From IMG/VR virus record IMGVR_UViG_3300012964_000034, positions 1-33,528 of that record: a DNA stretch of 33,528 nucleotides; one strand, written 5' to 3'. Of the stretch, positions 9,066 through 33,528 are shown in pieces. How positions within the stretch are numbered: the first letter of the stretch is position 1; each line of letters begins with the position of its first letter. The notes below the pieces were generated by a model. The model saw nothing but the letters and a program-made list of their open reading frames with translations, was not told where the DNA came from and did not search any database. This DNA is from a virus. The position numbers and the translations under genes are program-made.

Positions 9066-9137
9066 ACCGCGTTAGAGCATTGGCAGCTTATCAGGCTCAT
9101 AACCTGATGGAAGGTGGTTCGATTCCATCACGCGGTA
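9066..9137 (+). tRNA. tRNA-Met (CAU anticodon)
   Basis: A full cloverleaf can be folded by eye: acceptor ACCGCGT with ACGCGGT, D-stem GAGC/GCTT with a GG-containing loop, anticodon stem TCAGG/CCTGA around CTCATAA, five-base variable loop, T-stem GGTGG/CCATC around TTCGATT, discriminator A. The 3' CCA is not encoded. The 5' pair A-T is normal for an elongator and not the C-A mismatch of initiator tRNA. A CAU anticodon could also be a tRNA-Ile2 whose C34 is modified to lysidine. Confidence 0.93.
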
Positions 9138-29579: not shown

Positions 29580-29746
29580 ACGAAGGCCAGACATGTTATC
29601 AATCTGATTTACTATGCCCGAAGTGTCATGAAAGATTAAACGGATCAGGGCGTAAATTATGGTGTATTAATTCATCATGTTTAGATAACAGAATAATTAA
29701 AACAGAAAACAAGATCATTAACTATGGAACAAAACCTAAAACTTAA
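29564..29746 (+). CDS. Small zinc-ribbon protein
   Basis: 60 residues from a GTG start preceded by AGAAGG. It contains CYQSDLLCPKCHERL and a CINSSC motif, giving four cysteines in two CxxC-like pairs (CPKC, and C-x4-C), as in zinc ribbons. Starts inside the previous gene and ends inside the M23 gene start region. Confidence 0.5.
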   Translation: MEQKLNEGQTCYQSDLLCPKCHERLNGSGRKLWCINSSCLDNRIIKTENKIINYGTKPKT

Positions 29747-30230
29747 ACCAGAATTCGCAAGCCCTGTTGATTTTATACCTCTCGAATCGCCTCACATATC
29801 CTCATATTATGGCCCTCGTATTTTAAACGGTAAACCTGATTTTCATGATGGAATCGACTTTGCGAATAAATCTCATAATTGCAATGATCGCCTAAATCCT
29901 ATCGGGACCGACGTTTACGCAATATGTGACGGGGTTATTTGTTATGACTATGACACGTACAATGATATTTTCAGGTTTGATCCACAGCATCGAATTGACT
30001 CTGCCGGGAATATGATTGTATTGGATATTATTTATAACGGATTATTATTTCATGTTCGATATTTACACTTGGTTGATAATTGCGTCAAGAACAGACAGGC
30101 AGTCAAAAAAGGTGAAAGGCTCGGTCGATATGGAGATGTCGGATATTCCTTCGGACCACATACTCACATGGATTGGTCTGTGTCAGACTGGTCACAGAAG
30201 ATTGATTTTACACCGATAATGTTTGTATGA
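29724..30230 (+). CDS. M23-family metallopeptidase (endolysin-like)
   Basis: 168 residues. Zinc motifs are visible: FHDGIDF (His41, Asp45), a YLH segment (His115) and GPHTHMDW (His146, His148), the H-x3-D...H-x-H layout of LytM/M23 peptidases that cut peptidoglycan cross-bridges. No signal peptide is seen, so export would depend on the holin-type partners or it acts from the cytoplasm late. It is the last phage gene before the cassette array. Confidence 0.85.
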   Translation: MEQNLKLKPEFASPVDFIPLESPHISSYYGPRILNGKPDFHDGIDFANKSHNCNDRLNPIGTDVYAICDGVICYDYDTYNDIFRFDPQHRIDSAGNMIVLDIIYNGLLFHVRYLHLVDNCVKNRQAVKKGERLGRYGDVGYSFGPHTHMDWSVSDWSQKIDFTPIMFV

Positions 30231-30237
30231 CGCTTTT

Positions 30238-30309
30238 TGTAATAAACACGTATTCGCATTAACTCACTGTAGTGAGAATAAGCGCCGTACATGTATTAAT
30301 AGTTGTCAG
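30238..30309. repeat. Long imperfect hairpin at the phage-array junction (degenerate terminal attC or terminator)
   Basis: Arms of about 25 bases, around a short CTCACT/AGTGAG stem near 30262-30275, pair imperfectly (for instance CACGTA with TACATG, CGCATT with AATAAGCG). The right side ends in the box GTTGTCAG (30302-30309), matching the cassette end at 30518-30525. It is either the last, decayed attC-like site or the late-operon terminator with an appended box. No good U-run on either side. Confidence 0.5.
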
Positions 30310-30324
30310 AAATGGCGCAATAGA

Positions 30325-30681
30325 TCATCCTTCTGGCTTTATATTTATTAATTCTTGGCATAAAATATTTATTAATGCTTCGCTTTTCGTCAATGGGTAA
30401 TCTAATGCAGTTCGCGGATGCTTTCTATTGCACGATATTCTGTTATACCCTATTCCACGCAAATCAATATAATAACGATCGCTATCCTCTGTTATTTTTA
30501 TTCGAATTGCGCCACATCTGACAACAGCGTGTATCTGCTCCTCGCTGCGCTCGTCGGGTTTCGGCGATAATTTTTCTTCCCAATGTTGATGCAAAATATC
30601 ATCTGCGCTACACCCCGTACATGCAGTTCCAAAAAACATTTGATTCCCATCATGCTTGCAATTCCTACAATCTTTTTCCAT
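30325..30681 (-). CDS. Cassette 1 gene: zinc-ribbon protein read through a recombination box
   Basis: 118 residues from the ATG at 30681 with AAAGGAG upstream. The N-terminus CRNCKH, then GTACTGCS, is a four-cysteine zinc ribbon; the C-terminus (IRIKITEDSDRYYIDLRGIG and on) looks like a separate alpha/beta domain. The box at 30518-30525 lies inside the coding region and encodes the AVVR junction, so the gene begins outside the cassette that contains its second half. It may be an in-frame fusion created by recombination, or a native gene of an enlarged cassette. Function unknown. Confidence 0.65.
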   Translation of the reverse strand: MEKDCRNCKHDGNQMFFGTACTGCSADDILHQHWEEKLSPKPDERSEEQIHAVVRCGAIRIKITEDSDRYYIDLRGIGYNRISCNRKHPRTALDYPLTKSEALINILCQELINIKPEG

Positions 30682-30836
30682 ATATTCTCCTTTTATTTTT
30701 TACTTATCGCCTCAACCAAATTTTTTAAACCTCGCCCTTATCCGCTTTGACTCGCATAGATAAGAGATTTATTTTCATGCTCGCAAATCGGGGTCTCGGT
30801 TTAAAAAACTTCAAGATACCCGCAAACGTTATGTGC
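30518..30836 (-). repeat. Enlarged attC-like site containing a gene start
   Basis: Box CTGACAAC (30518-30525) with AGCG after it and the box GTTATGTGC (30828-30836) preceded by GCAAAC look like the two halves of a normal site, and GTGTATCT pairs with AGATACCC. Instead of about 40 bases, some 300 lie between, including the SD and first half of the cassette 1 gene and an AAATTTTTTAAACC/GGTTTAAAAAACTT stem. This stretch (30682-30827) holds no other gene. Confidence 0.5.
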
Positions 30837-30981
30837 CAGTTCGCCCGGTTTTTCGTTCATAATGTTTTTGAATAATTATCTCAATTAAATTACTCAGAGT
30901 ACGTTTTTCTTTTTTGGCATCGACGCGGAGTTTCTTTTTTAGCTCCGCGTCGATTCTGGCCGATAAATTTGTTTTAGCCAT
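30829..30981 (-). CDS. Cassette 2 second gene: ribbon-helix-helix protein (50 aa)
   Basis: Starts at ATG 30981, overlapping the previous stop by eight bases. MAKTNLSARIDAELKKKLRV followed by DAKKEKRTLSNLIEIIIQKH is a clear ribbon-helix-helix pattern: a strand with alternating residues, a basic helix, a turn, a second helix. It is of antitoxin or CopG size. The TAA stop lies within the recombination box itself, a common feature of integron cassettes. It may bind the two ATGTATACAT palindromes in its own promoter. Confidence 0.72.
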   Translation of the reverse strand: MAKTNLSARIDAELKKKLRVDAKKEKRTLSNLIEIIIQKHYERKTGRTGT

Positions 30982-31432
30982 TACCAGCCCCCAACATTTT
31001 CGGCATTTTACCCGTTTCGGCCATCGTTGTTAATTGCGGTAATATATGATCTGATAATTGTTTCCCGTCTGGCATAACCACGAAAGCCATAAATTCCTTT
31101 TCAAGTGTCGATATACCAGTTTCAACGGCTTCAAGCTTTGCTTTAACAGATAAAACTAAGGCTCTCCATCTTTGTCGCACGGCCTGTTCATGCGCCGCAT
31201 CTATCTGACCTTGTTTTCTGATCCGGCCAGTATCAGATTTCCTAAAATCAGCCTTATCCGGTATCGGGACTGTTATCTGAATCATAAGCCGTTTGTATTC
31301 AAACATTAAATGTGCGGCTCCACGGTCTTCCATTGTCCCGAATCTATCAGCACCGTATTTTCGTAAAATGCTGGTTACTTCTTGTTGTGATTTTTCGACG
31401 CTTACAGTCGTATTATTCGCGTATCTTGCCAT
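30974..31432 (-). CDS. Cassette 2 first gene: phage-type hypothetical protein
   Basis: 152 residues. It begins with MARYANNTTVSVEKSQQEV and has an RQRWRALVLSVKAKLEAVE helix and EFMAFVVMPDG strand, a pattern I recall from uncharacterised proteins in phages and mobile elements. No enzymatic motif. The ATG lies seven bases after a consensus -10, so probably leaderless. Coupled with the RHH gene; a toxin-antitoxin pair cannot be claimed, as this protein does not resemble a known toxin. Confidence 0.72.
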   Translation of the reverse strand: MARYANNTTVSVEKSQQEVTSILRKYGADRFGTMEDRGAAHLMFEYKRLMIQITVPIPDKADFRKSDTGRIRKQGQIDAAHEQAVRQRWRALVLSVKAKLEAVETGISTLEKEFMAFVVMPDGKQLSDHILPQLTTMAETGKMPKMLGAGNG

Positions 31433-31467
31433 GTATACATATTAGTACGATGTATACATATTGTCAA
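31431..31467 (-). promoter_or_regulatory. Promoter of cassette 2 with two identical operator palindromes
   Basis: TTGACA (31467-31462) and TAATAT (31444-31439) are spaced by 17 bases on the minus strand, close to consensus. ATGTATACAT is repeated at 31431-31440 and 31450-31459, centre-to-centre 19 bases, one copy in the spacer and one overlapping the start codon and -10 edge. This would suit repression by the RHH dimer encoded downstream. Confidence 0.75.
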
Positions 31468-31498
31468 TAATTAATTAATACTTTAGAGGGGCGAACCA

Positions 31499-31580
31499 GC
31501 ACATAACAGCGGGTAACCGGCTACACTTCGTTTCGCCTACATTGCCTACGGCAACGTCAGTTACCCGCAAACGTTGTCAG
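31499..31580 (-). repeat. attC-like site between cassettes 2 and 3
   Basis: Boxes GCACATAAC (31499-31507) and GTTGTCAG (31573-31580). Inner arms GGGTAAC and GTTACCC pair, and the middle holds a further stem. Shares AACAGCG and GCAAACGTT with other sites. 82 bases. Confidence 0.8.
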
Positions 31581-31594
31581 AAAGAAGCGGTGTA

Positions 31595-31741
31595 CTATCT
31601 TGTGGCATAGTAAAATATTATCATTATTATTACATTCATCGCTATTCTAAATAATGCTTCATTTTTAGTCTTATCTCTAAAATAAGAAATAATCAATGTT
31701 GTAATAACCCACCCTAAATAGTAATTAATAAAGTCATTCAT
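31595..31741 (-). CDS. Cassette 3 gene: small membrane protein (48 aa)
   Basis: ATG at 31741 with AGGAG nine bases upstream; stop 14 bases before the recombination box. The sequence begins MNDFINYYLGWVITTLIISY and contains a second hydrophobic stretch (IAMNVIIMIIFYYA), so one or two membrane helices are likely. It is the only open frame of a cassette that otherwise would be empty. No family recognised. Confidence 0.65.
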   Translation of the reverse strand: MNDFINYYLGWVITTLIISYFRDKTKNEALFRIAMNVIIMIIFYYATR

Positions 31742-31782
31742 TTTAATTTTCTCCTAAGTTTATTTATCCGAACCGCTTCCAT

Positions 31783-31837
31783 CTGACAACAGCGCGTAAA
31801 CGCAATTAAAACCGCGTCTACGCGCAAACGTTAGTTG
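31783..31837 (-). repeat. attC-like site between cassettes 3 and 4
   Basis: Boxes CTGACAAC (31783-31790) and GTTAGTTG (31830-31837). Inner arms GCGTAAACGC and GCGTCTACGC pair with one mismatch; short terminal loop. 55 bases, the most compact site here. Confidence 0.82.
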
Positions 31838-31851
31838 AAAAATGACGTGTA

Positions 31852-32064
31852 TTATTCGTCATTATTTTTAAATGTTGCGTAACCACCATCATATTTATTG
31901 CCAGAGACATTAATCTCCCAACCACGACCATTTTTTGATACTAAATATTTTTCACCATTACCACGATCAGTATACTCAATAGAATCAGCCCCGATGAAAT
32001 CACCGAAACCTTGTAACATTATCCTGTGGTTCTCAGAACCTGGGTTTATTACTTTGCAAGACAT
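31852..32064 (-). CDS. Cassette 4 gene: small hypothetical protein (70 aa)
   Basis: AAGGAG six bases before the ATG; the 14-base string from SD to ATG is identical to that of the cassette 1 gene. Beta-rich and polar (SKNGRGWEINVSGNKYDGGY), with no membrane segment. Stop 14 bases from the box. Family not recognised. Confidence 0.68.
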   Translation of the reverse strand: MSCKVINPGSENHRIMLQGFGDFIGADSIEYTDRGNGEKYLVSKNGRGWEINVSGNKYDGGYATFKNNDE

Positions 32065-32107
32065 ATATTCTCCTTATGTTTTTTAAATTTATTCAAACGT
32101 CATCCAT

Positions 32108-32192
32108 CAACTAACAAGTTTTAACCGGCTTCGTTTCACTTCGCCCAAATTTTTTGAGTACAAAAAACTTCGGTTAAAACTGACGTTATCAG
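32108..32192 (-). repeat. attC-like site between cassettes 4 and 5
   Basis: Boxes CAACTAAC (32108-32115) and GTTATCAG (32185-32192). Inner arms GTTTTAACCG and CGGTTAAAAC pair perfectly; a further TTTTTTG/CAAAAAA stem forms the tip. Spacers differ from those of the AGCG/GCAAAC sites. Confidence 0.8.
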
Positions 32193-32217
32193 AAACGGCT
32201 GGCAGATTTGTCGTCTG

Positions 32218-32367
32218 CTACCATATAATTAATTTATGTACCATCGGATATTGTGGAAAACTTTTGCCTATAATTATCCATCGCATCCAATAATAAATAA
32301 GCTCCATCGGTAGCACTATAAATAATGCAGGCAAAAAACATATAGTTTTTGTTAATCTTTTTAACAT
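32218..32367 (-). CDS. Cassette 5 gene: small membrane protein (49 aa)
   Basis: ATG at 32367 with AGGAG five bases upstream. It begins MLKRLTKTICFLPALFIVLP and continues with an aromatic hydrophobic stretch (MELIYYWMRWIIIG), so it is probably membrane-embedded. Stop 25 bases from the box. It is the only gene in this cassette. No family recognised. Confidence 0.62.
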   Translation of the reverse strand: MLKRLTKTICFLPALFIVLPMELIYYWMRWIIIGKSFPQYPMVHKLIIW

Positions 32368-32432
32368 AATATCTCCTAAACTTTATTTAACTAAATATAT
32401 TAGTCCATGTAACTCTTCCAAGCCAGCCGCAT

Positions 32433-32531
32433 CTGACAACAGAGATTATGAGCTGCGCCGGAATACCGGCTTGGCCTTCGGCACAGTTTTTTGAAATACA
32501 AAAAACCGTCTCATAATCTCAACGTTGTGCG
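32433..32531 (-). repeat. attC-like site between cassettes 5 and 6
   Basis: Boxes CTGACAAC (32433-32440) and GTTGTGCG (32524-32531). Inner arms GAGATTATGAG and CTCATAATCTC pair perfectly; the tip carries TTTTTTG/CAAAAAA and CCGG hairpins. 99 bases, the longest regular site. Confidence 0.82.
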
Positions 32532-32581
32532 GACATTGATAATGGTTAATCGCTATCCGCATGGCTCGTCATCGTGACTCG

Positions 32582-33130
32582 CTATTCCCTCGCATACTGC
32601 GAAAATTCTACTCCACGTTCACAAAATGCAGATACCATTGAACAAACTAATCCGAATGACATTCCAGAATGGCCTTGTTTTTTTATCTCACATTTTGCAT
32701 CTTCGAGTGTTCCATCATTATTCAGGATATTGATAATATCAAGACATGCTTTTAATTCGAATCCTTGATATAAATCATCTAATCTTATTGGCACAACGCT
32801 TGCCCATTTTTCTCGGTATTTTTCATCAAGAATTTTATTTCCTTTTGTAATCCACTCTTGAGTTAACTCAGGGACTCTGTCTTTATGCTCTTGTTGTTTT
32901 CTTTTATATTCTTCTTGTTCTTTTCTACGGGCTTCATCAAATTCTGATTTCGATTTCCCTGTTATTTTAAGATAAGCGCTGTTAATATCATCTTTATCAG
33001 AATAAAGAGTTTTGCCGTTAAAATCACCACAAGCTAAAAAACCTTTCTTTCGGTATTCCATTAGATCGTTCATAGCAGTATCAATTGTATTACCAGCATA
33101 AAACTCAATTTTTAAATAATTATCTTCCAT
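32582..33130 (-). CDS. Cassette 6 gene: charged coiled-coil protein (182 aa)
   Basis: AAAGGAG precedes the ATG. The N-terminus (FYAGNTIDTAMNDLMEYRKK then GDFNGKTLYSD) is a small alpha/beta domain; the middle (DEARRKEQEEYKRKQQEHKD) is a highly charged coiled coil; the C-terminus is helical with several cysteines and GLVCSMV. No catalytic motif. It is the largest cassette gene. Function unknown. Confidence 0.75.
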   Translation of the reverse strand: MEDNYLKIEFYAGNTIDTAMNDLMEYRKKGFLACGDFNGKTLYSDKDDINSAYLKITGKSKSEFDEARRKEQEEYKRKQQEHKDRVPELTQEWITKGNKILDEKYREKWASVVPIRLDDLYQGFELKACLDIINILNNDGTLEDAKCEIKKQGHSGMSFGLVCSMVSAFCERGVEFSQYARE

Positions 33131-33202
33131 TTGTAATCTCCTTTTTTATAAGTCATGTTTCGTCCGGCATCGTGCCGAACTCATGCTCCGAATTATCAAC
33201 GT

Positions 33203-33259
33203 CGCACAACAGCGGGCGAAACGCCATTGGAAACGGCGTCTGCCCACAAACGTTGTGCG
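33203..33259 (-). repeat. attC-like site between cassettes 6 and 7
   Basis: Boxes CGCACAAC (33203-33210) and GTTGTGCG (33252-33259) pair perfectly. Inner arms GGGCGAAACGCC and GGCGTCTGCCC pair with one extra base on one side, the kind of extrahelical base known to orient attC recombination. 57 bases. Confidence 0.85.
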
Positions 33260-33273
33260 AAACAATCGACAGA

Positions 33274-33468
33274 TCATTCGTGAGCGCATATAAGTATCCC
33301 ATATTTATAACCATACGCATCAAGTATTTTCGGTTTATTGCCTTTTTCTCTACAATCGTTTGCGAATTTAATTTTATCATTGTAGTTTTGTTTATTTAAT
33401 TCACTTATTTGCCAGAATATCGCAAACAACACGATTGTAATAATTACTCCTATTTTAATTATATTCAT
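33274..33468 (-). CDS. Cassette 7 gene: small protein with N-terminal TM (64 aa)
   Basis: GAGGGAG precedes the ATG. N-terminal hydrophobic helix IIKIGVIITIVLFAIFW, then a polar region with two cysteines (DCREKGNKP and ILICAHE) that may pair outside the cytoplasm. Stop 14 bases from the box. Could be an anchored periplasmic peptide. No family recognised. Confidence 0.66.
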   Translation of the reverse strand: MNIIKIGVIITIVLFAIFWQISELNKQNYNDKIKFANDCREKGNKPKILDAYGYKYGILICAHE

Positions 33469-33506
33469 TTTTTACTCCCTCTTATATTATTCCAAGTCGA
33501 TTCCAT

Positions 33507-33528
33507 CGCACAACAGCGGATGGGCTGA
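33507..33528 (-). repeat. attC-like site, truncated by the window edge
   Basis: Box CGCACAAC (33507-33514) followed by AGCGGAT, the same left part as the other sites. The right half is outside, so the array continues past the window. Confidence 0.75.

Follow-up and report, generated by a model that had tools for sequence, protein, structure and literature searches.

A probable integron-type cassette array on a tailed phage, with counterparts beside an IntI-like recombinase in Patescibacteria

What kind of element follows the late genes of a phage when gene after gene is bounded by inverted repeats that are private to each unit? The question is raised by the window studied here, the whole of IMG/VR virus record IMGVR_UViG_3300012964_000034 (33,528 bases, classed linear). 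Its genes include those for a terminase, portal, head protease, major head protein, tail sheath, baseplate and M23 endolysin, and the window is therefore a tailed phage with a contractile tail. Beyond the last late gene, which encodes an M23 peptidase, probably the endolysin (29724-30230, plus strand; PF01551, E 1e-11), a leading-edge (attI-like) region (30231-30301, plus strand) reaches to the first GTT box, where seven head-to-tail units begin (30302-33514). The original prediction read these units as integron-like cassettes carried by a phage. That reading stands, and the same anatomy recurs in Patescibacteria, or Candidate Phyla Radiation (CPR), next to an attI-like site and a recombinase related to IntI, as well as in further contigs that carry phage hallmark genes. 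We conclude that the array is probably an integron-type array of a family whose full platforms sit in CPR chromosomes.

All seven units lie where they had been placed, and each opens with a GTT box and closes with a complement ending in AAC. The boxes at a unit's own two ends are complementary in every case, exactly so save for one mismatch in cassette 5, and the spacers measure 55-99 nucleotides (nt) with their boxes, or 39-83 nt inside them, apart from an enlarged one of 302 nt after unit 1. The complementarity is longer than first noted: 9 nt are followed by a mismatch of 2-3 nt and then by about 8 nt more, cassette 6 requiring a one-base shift. Pairs matching at 15 or more of 19 positions number six within the array and zero elsewhere in the window, with a mean of 0.05 in 300 shuffles. 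The mismatch bases are non-random, with AA (or CA) on the arm adjoining CGCAAAC-GTT and TG (sometimes AG or CG) on the opposite arm adjoining AAC-AGCG; in a circularised cassette the bottom strand presents T.T and G.T, and the top strand A.A and C.A. The bottom strand out-folds the top strand in 46 of 47 sites, and in 5 of 5 within the window, its fold running from the outer helix through one mismatch, the R helix (ten pairs) and a three-base bulge (TTN) to the L helix. attC sites have this same strand preference, to which an outer helix is added here.

Where such arrays reside in full became apparent from a box-plus-flank pattern run over 84,980 genomes. It matched 16 stretches, and eight of these contain full outer-helix cassettes (L127, L130, L131, L133, L134, L137, L139 and L142); of the 105 hits of a first pattern, most were chance matches. 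Seven of the eight records are titled as Patescibacteria groups, among them Peribacteraceae, Kerfeldbacteria, Falkowbacteria, Microgenomatus and Parcubacteria; the eighth, L139, is titled merely 'bacterium' and has the same two recombinase types. Some cassettes are shared between CPR genomes up to the box borders, and genes in these arrays usually begin just inside the AA arm (38 of 44 by a crude open reading frame (ORF) rule). One array carries a methyltransferase, a NUDIX protein, a hydrolase and a RibD-like protein, a cargo that is normal for integrons. A Parcubacteria cassette (L142, 138-1529) occurs as a tandem duplicate of 664 nt, the copies being 87% identical and bordered precisely by the boxes.

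The arrays in these genomes adjoin the gene for a tyrosine recombinase that is some 270 residues long and has its catalytic residues conserved. Against the integron integrase model it scores 211-229 bits (cut-off 265), the match falling into two pieces that leave profile positions 179-236 uncovered; a chromosomal Xer from the same phylum scores 119 bits. Its best profile fit is NF040815 XerA_Arch, and among solved structures its best relative is 2a3v, the integrase of Vibrio cholerae, with the stretch from residue 182 to 240 again unmatched. The GxGLR and HxLRH motifs stand 93 residues apart in all 21 Patescibacteria proteins compared, against 135 residues in all 15 gammaproteobacterial IntI. 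Judged by sequence, the enzyme is IntI-like but 42 residues shorter exactly at the position of the I2 domain. I2 is the domain that defines integron integrases, and PMC9668308, citing Messier and Roy 2001, gives it as necessary for recombination. In a tree the CPR array recombinases form one group beside IntI, apart from the chromosomal Xer sampled, with support of 95/83 when the divergent L164 is included and 98/98 when it is excluded. The I2-less enzyme is present in 54 of 380 CPR genomes, canonical IntI (TIGR02249 above cut-off) in 0 of the same 380, and a search of Chloroflexi as a further source gave 1 of 151 genomes. An AlphaFold2 model of the recombinase with two sequences had a mean pLDDT of 52 and was not used. 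In a Kerfeldbacteria locus (L168, 11100-12966) the recombinase gene is interrupted, with the array and its attI-like site still present.

A conserved attI-like site, TTCGTATAAAAACGA running directly into GTT, heads the CPR arrays. Its consensus, ATTCGTATAAAAACGA before the junction and GTTATGTGAAAT after it, is common to 23 CPR loci and lies 64-156 bases from the recombinase start. Leave-one-out scoring of the 16 bases before GTT placed 22 of these 23 sites above 8.8 bits, a result favoured by their having been chosen for likeness to the consensus; of 24,840 background GTT sites, 7 exceeded 8 bits. A strict version of the pattern occurred at 21 places in the 380 CPR genomes and at 3 with a reversed control, and 10 of its 18 matched genomes are among the 54 that carry the recombinase. 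Cassettes beginning at the CPR site always show the AA arm first. Several phage arrays likewise have their own leading-edge site, such as ATTGCGGATAAATGTA before GTT in the myophage L076 and GTTTCGTATAAATGAA before GTT in L027.

Could the window instead hold a fragment of a canonical IntI-type integron that a phage picked up, as in virulent phages? Such a fragment would be a CALIN (cluster of attC sites lacking an integron integrase), and integrase-less attC clusters on phages are known and functional with IntI1 (PMC9892861). The window has two or more attC sites on a phage contig that lacks intI, and its boxes and hairpins are attC-like, with the R''/R' boxes, own-end complementarity and foldable bottom strand of canonical sites. 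We nevertheless consider this explanation improbable. The boxes fit the consensus GTTRRRY only partly, many being GTTGTNNG, which lies outside it. The outer helix with its conserved 2-nt mismatch, a defining trait of the Patescibacteria-type family, is found in the window and in CPR arrays beside the I2-less recombinase, and is missing from five canonical cassettes with known ends. There, complementarity stops after 8-12 nt (9-11 nt has been published; PMC2727003) and the outer positions match at chance level in all five, the boundary of aadA16 being not cleanly located. These cassettes, from a class 1 array and one chromosomal array, replaced 20 gammaproteobacterial IntI loci as the positive attC control because most of those loci were array-poor and held few attC sites; the 20 had given 0 pairs with at least 6 of 8 outer matches. 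CPR loci gave 34 raw pairs at that level, a few of them unrelated palindromes, and on 82 unrelated viral loci the detector returned zero pairs at seven or eight matches.

Arrays of this type recur on phages. At least six other contigs combine them with phage hallmark or replication genes (L027, L051, L076, L108, L114 and L031), and an attC of L051 matches that of a Parcubacteria cassette with 84% identity across 104 bases. The window array also has sequence in common with that of L076, a phage with which the window shares almost no protein similarity (the baseplate reaches 34% over 143 residues). In each of the two phages the array follows immediately on the late operon, and the leading edges share TTCGCATTAACTC-N16-GCGC-N16-GTT with identical spacing; 30 of 60 nt upstream of GTT are identical, a level reached by 0 of 24,715 random GTT sites. 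The attC after window cassette 4 is 93% identical to an L076 attC over 85 nt, arm ends included. The earlier proposal of a mobile cassette pool gains support from this attC, because it is carried by two phages of different backbone.

These observations bear on a second alternative, that a bacterial array was joined to the phage late genes by assembly or binning. The contig, which is linear, terminates in the array, as such a chimera might, but we regard a chimera as very unlikely: in L076, whose backbone is different, the array likewise follows the late genes and comes with the same leading-edge motif and the 93% identical attC, and other contigs combine arrays with terminase, portal or tail genes. 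Least credible is the explanation that the units are not recombination sites but independent inverted repeats, such as termini like those of miniature inverted-repeat transposable elements or transcription terminators around small genes, for although 19-nt inverted repeats bound each unit and hairpins lie between genes, the repeats are private to each unit, the GTT/AAC polarity is constant, the mismatch is strand-asymmetric, CPR arrays are headed by an attI-like site and a recombinase, the L142 unit is duplicated with exact 664-nt borders, and CPR genomes share cassettes to the box borders.

A scan of IMG/VR for the shared leading-edge motif returned L076 and one cassette-less contig, and scans specific to GTTGTCAG found no more phages with the gene polarity of the window. 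Relatives of the window's baseplate and endolysin genes, sought in IMG/VR to view an empty site, were not found. The original prediction had also proposed a search for intI. No intI with an I2 domain and no I2-less IntI/Xer-like recombinase in cis is present in the window contig, and 13 of 14 array-bearing viral records lack a tyrosine recombinase, the exception being a 386-residue phage-type enzyme. The relevant recombinase family is the one beside the CPR arrays, which is IntI-related and non-canonical. Two observations concern phage cargo. A cassette gene of L027 (674-1450) encodes an N6/N4 DNA methyltransferase (PF01555), likened to methyltransferases reported in other phage cassettes, and DUF551 proteins are encoded in cassettes of two different phages (L266, 9562-9918; L027, 1965-2360).

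Several points weigh against assigning the window array to the CPR family. All clear genes in the window and L076 start at the TG arm, opposite to those of CPR arrays. The window's leading edge scores poorly against the CPR attI profile, and its ungapped score against other phage leading edges is modest, 7-11% of background sites scoring equally high. The canonical control set is small, at five cassettes. Relatives of the window terminase occur in 2 of 380 CPR genomes and are distant (27-37% identity). With close terminase relatives not found in those genomes, CPR are a candidate and not a proven host of the phage. Finally, the contig stops within the array, and a recombinase past its end is therefore possible.

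Our proposal for how the system might work starts from a platform of an I2-less IntI/Xer-like tyrosine recombinase, an attI-like site and cassettes with hairpin attC sites. The recombinase of the infected cell would bind the folded bottom strand of the phage attC, with strand exchange between G and TT of the box, and cassettes would be gained or lost at the leading edge just past the late operon (30302). The outer helix with its mismatch, together with the bulge, may replace what I2 reads in canonical sites. The reversed cassette genes could be expressed by read-through from the early operon: in L076 they run in the early-operon direction, and in the window they would do so if the genome were circularly permuted. 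For this full picture, with a host I2-less recombinase acting in trans on the phage array, we hold belief and doubt in equal measure. Evenly balanced, too, is our view of the wider idea of a working integron lineage in Patescibacteria that never had I2 or has lost it, in which strand identity would be read from the outer helix with its T.T mismatch and the 3-nt bulge, and phages would bring a landing site of their own, along with reversed cassettes that form a private pool.

All cassette genes of the window are on the minus strand, in keeping with the same-strand arrangement described earlier, and most are preceded by Shine-Dalgarno sequences. Cassette 1 (30302-30525) has boxes GTTGTCAG and CTGACAAC with the outer helix. 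Its 118-amino-acid (aa) gene (30325-30681) reads through the unit's own right arm (30506-30525), with PDERSEEQIHAVV in mid-gene, and because of this the unit looks like a fused or decayed cassette, as might result from the decay of an attC and the joining of two ORFs. The enlarged spacer that follows (30526-30827) has attC-like hairpin arms at 30718-30731 and 30798-30811. Cassette 2 (30828-31507; box GTTATGTG) carries two overlapping genes (30829-31432). One encodes a 50-aa ribbon-helix-helix protein of CopG/Arc type (30829-30981; PF01402, E 2e-5, over the cut-off), and the other a 152-aa protein (30974-31432; phrog_17260, function not assigned) about 43% identical to mycobacteriophage proteins. 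The two are possibly a toxin-antitoxin-like or regulator pair. Members of phrog_17260 also occur in mycobacteriophage and Leptospira phage records.

Beyond the attC inner hairpin of cassette 2 (31508-31572) come cassette 3 (31573-31790; box GTTGTCAG; 48-aa gene, 31595-31741) with its hairpin (31791-31829) and cassette 4 (31830-32115; box GTTAGTTG; 70-aa gene, 31852-32064), whose hairpin (32116-32184) has the near-identical copy in L076. Cassette 5 (32185-32440), with boxes GTTATCAG and GTTGTCAG and one mismatch between them, holds a 49-aa gene (32218-32367) and is followed by a hairpin at 32441-32523. Cassettes 6 and 7 both have box GTTGTGCG. Cassette 6 (32524-33210; hairpin 33211-33251) encodes a 182-aa protein (32582-33130) with 51% identity to Lysinibacillus plasmid proteins, and cassette 7 (33252-33514; 64-aa gene, 33274-33468) has its attC cut by the contig end. 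Five TG arms are GTTNNNNGATG, and each opens a mini-ORF 4-14 codons long; its stop codon overlaps the start of the cassette gene (ATGA, minus strand) in cassettes 3 and 7, an arrangement that suggests translational coupling. Screening the cassette genes for defence functions gave a single weak match (E 0.004) and nothing better. Outside the array, a tRNA-Met (CAT) gene at 9066-9137 separates the terminase and portal genes, and an Rfam scan of the window at gathering thresholds found one tRNA and nothing more.

The comparison points to a previously unreported integron-like system in Patescibacteria, which are ultra-small bacteria, with a recombinase that appears to lack a domain thought essential for cassette recognition; no prior account of integrons in Patescibacteria was found in the literature searched, which left subscription papers and preprints outside its scope. 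Searches that need an IntI-specific domain, such as the integrase profile of IntegronFinder (PMC9668308), are expected to miss the CPR recombinases. The origin of I2 has been termed a chicken-egg paradox (PMC4792948). A system in which attC-like hairpins and an attI-like site go with a recombinase devoid of I2 makes the question of I2 and attC origin directly testable, and the CPR lineage, if our reading is true, would be a living intermediate for it. The phage arrays show a possible route for cassettes between uncultured hosts.

With canonical integrons (class 1, Vibrio, Treponema) the system shares its cassette logic, GTT/AAC boxes, a bottom-strand hairpin with extrahelical bases and an attI-like site at the array head beside a tyrosine recombinase. 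It differs in a recombinase 42 residues shorter at the I2 position and in attC sites with an extra outer helix and conserved T.T mismatch, the boxes often being GTTGTNNG. The Treponema chromosomal integrons (PMC3607928) likewise lie outside Proteobacteria and have attC sites of varied length, but they are described, and are here set apart by description, not sequence, as having an intI gene and two-stem attC sites (R and L boxes). Phage CALINs (Qi et al. 2023, PMC9892861) are also phage-borne attC arrays without an integrase; the window differs from them in attC type, in its reversed gene polarity, and in having a leading-edge site and an attC common to two phages of different backbone. As in XerA, XerC and XerD, I2 is absent from the CPR array recombinase, whose profile fit is best with XerA_Arch, and dependence of the phage on a host recombinase would recall Xer-exploiting phages such as CTXphi. 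Unlike the Xer proteins, however, this recombinase groups with IntI, apart from the chromosomal Xer sampled, and serves arrays of multiple cassettes.

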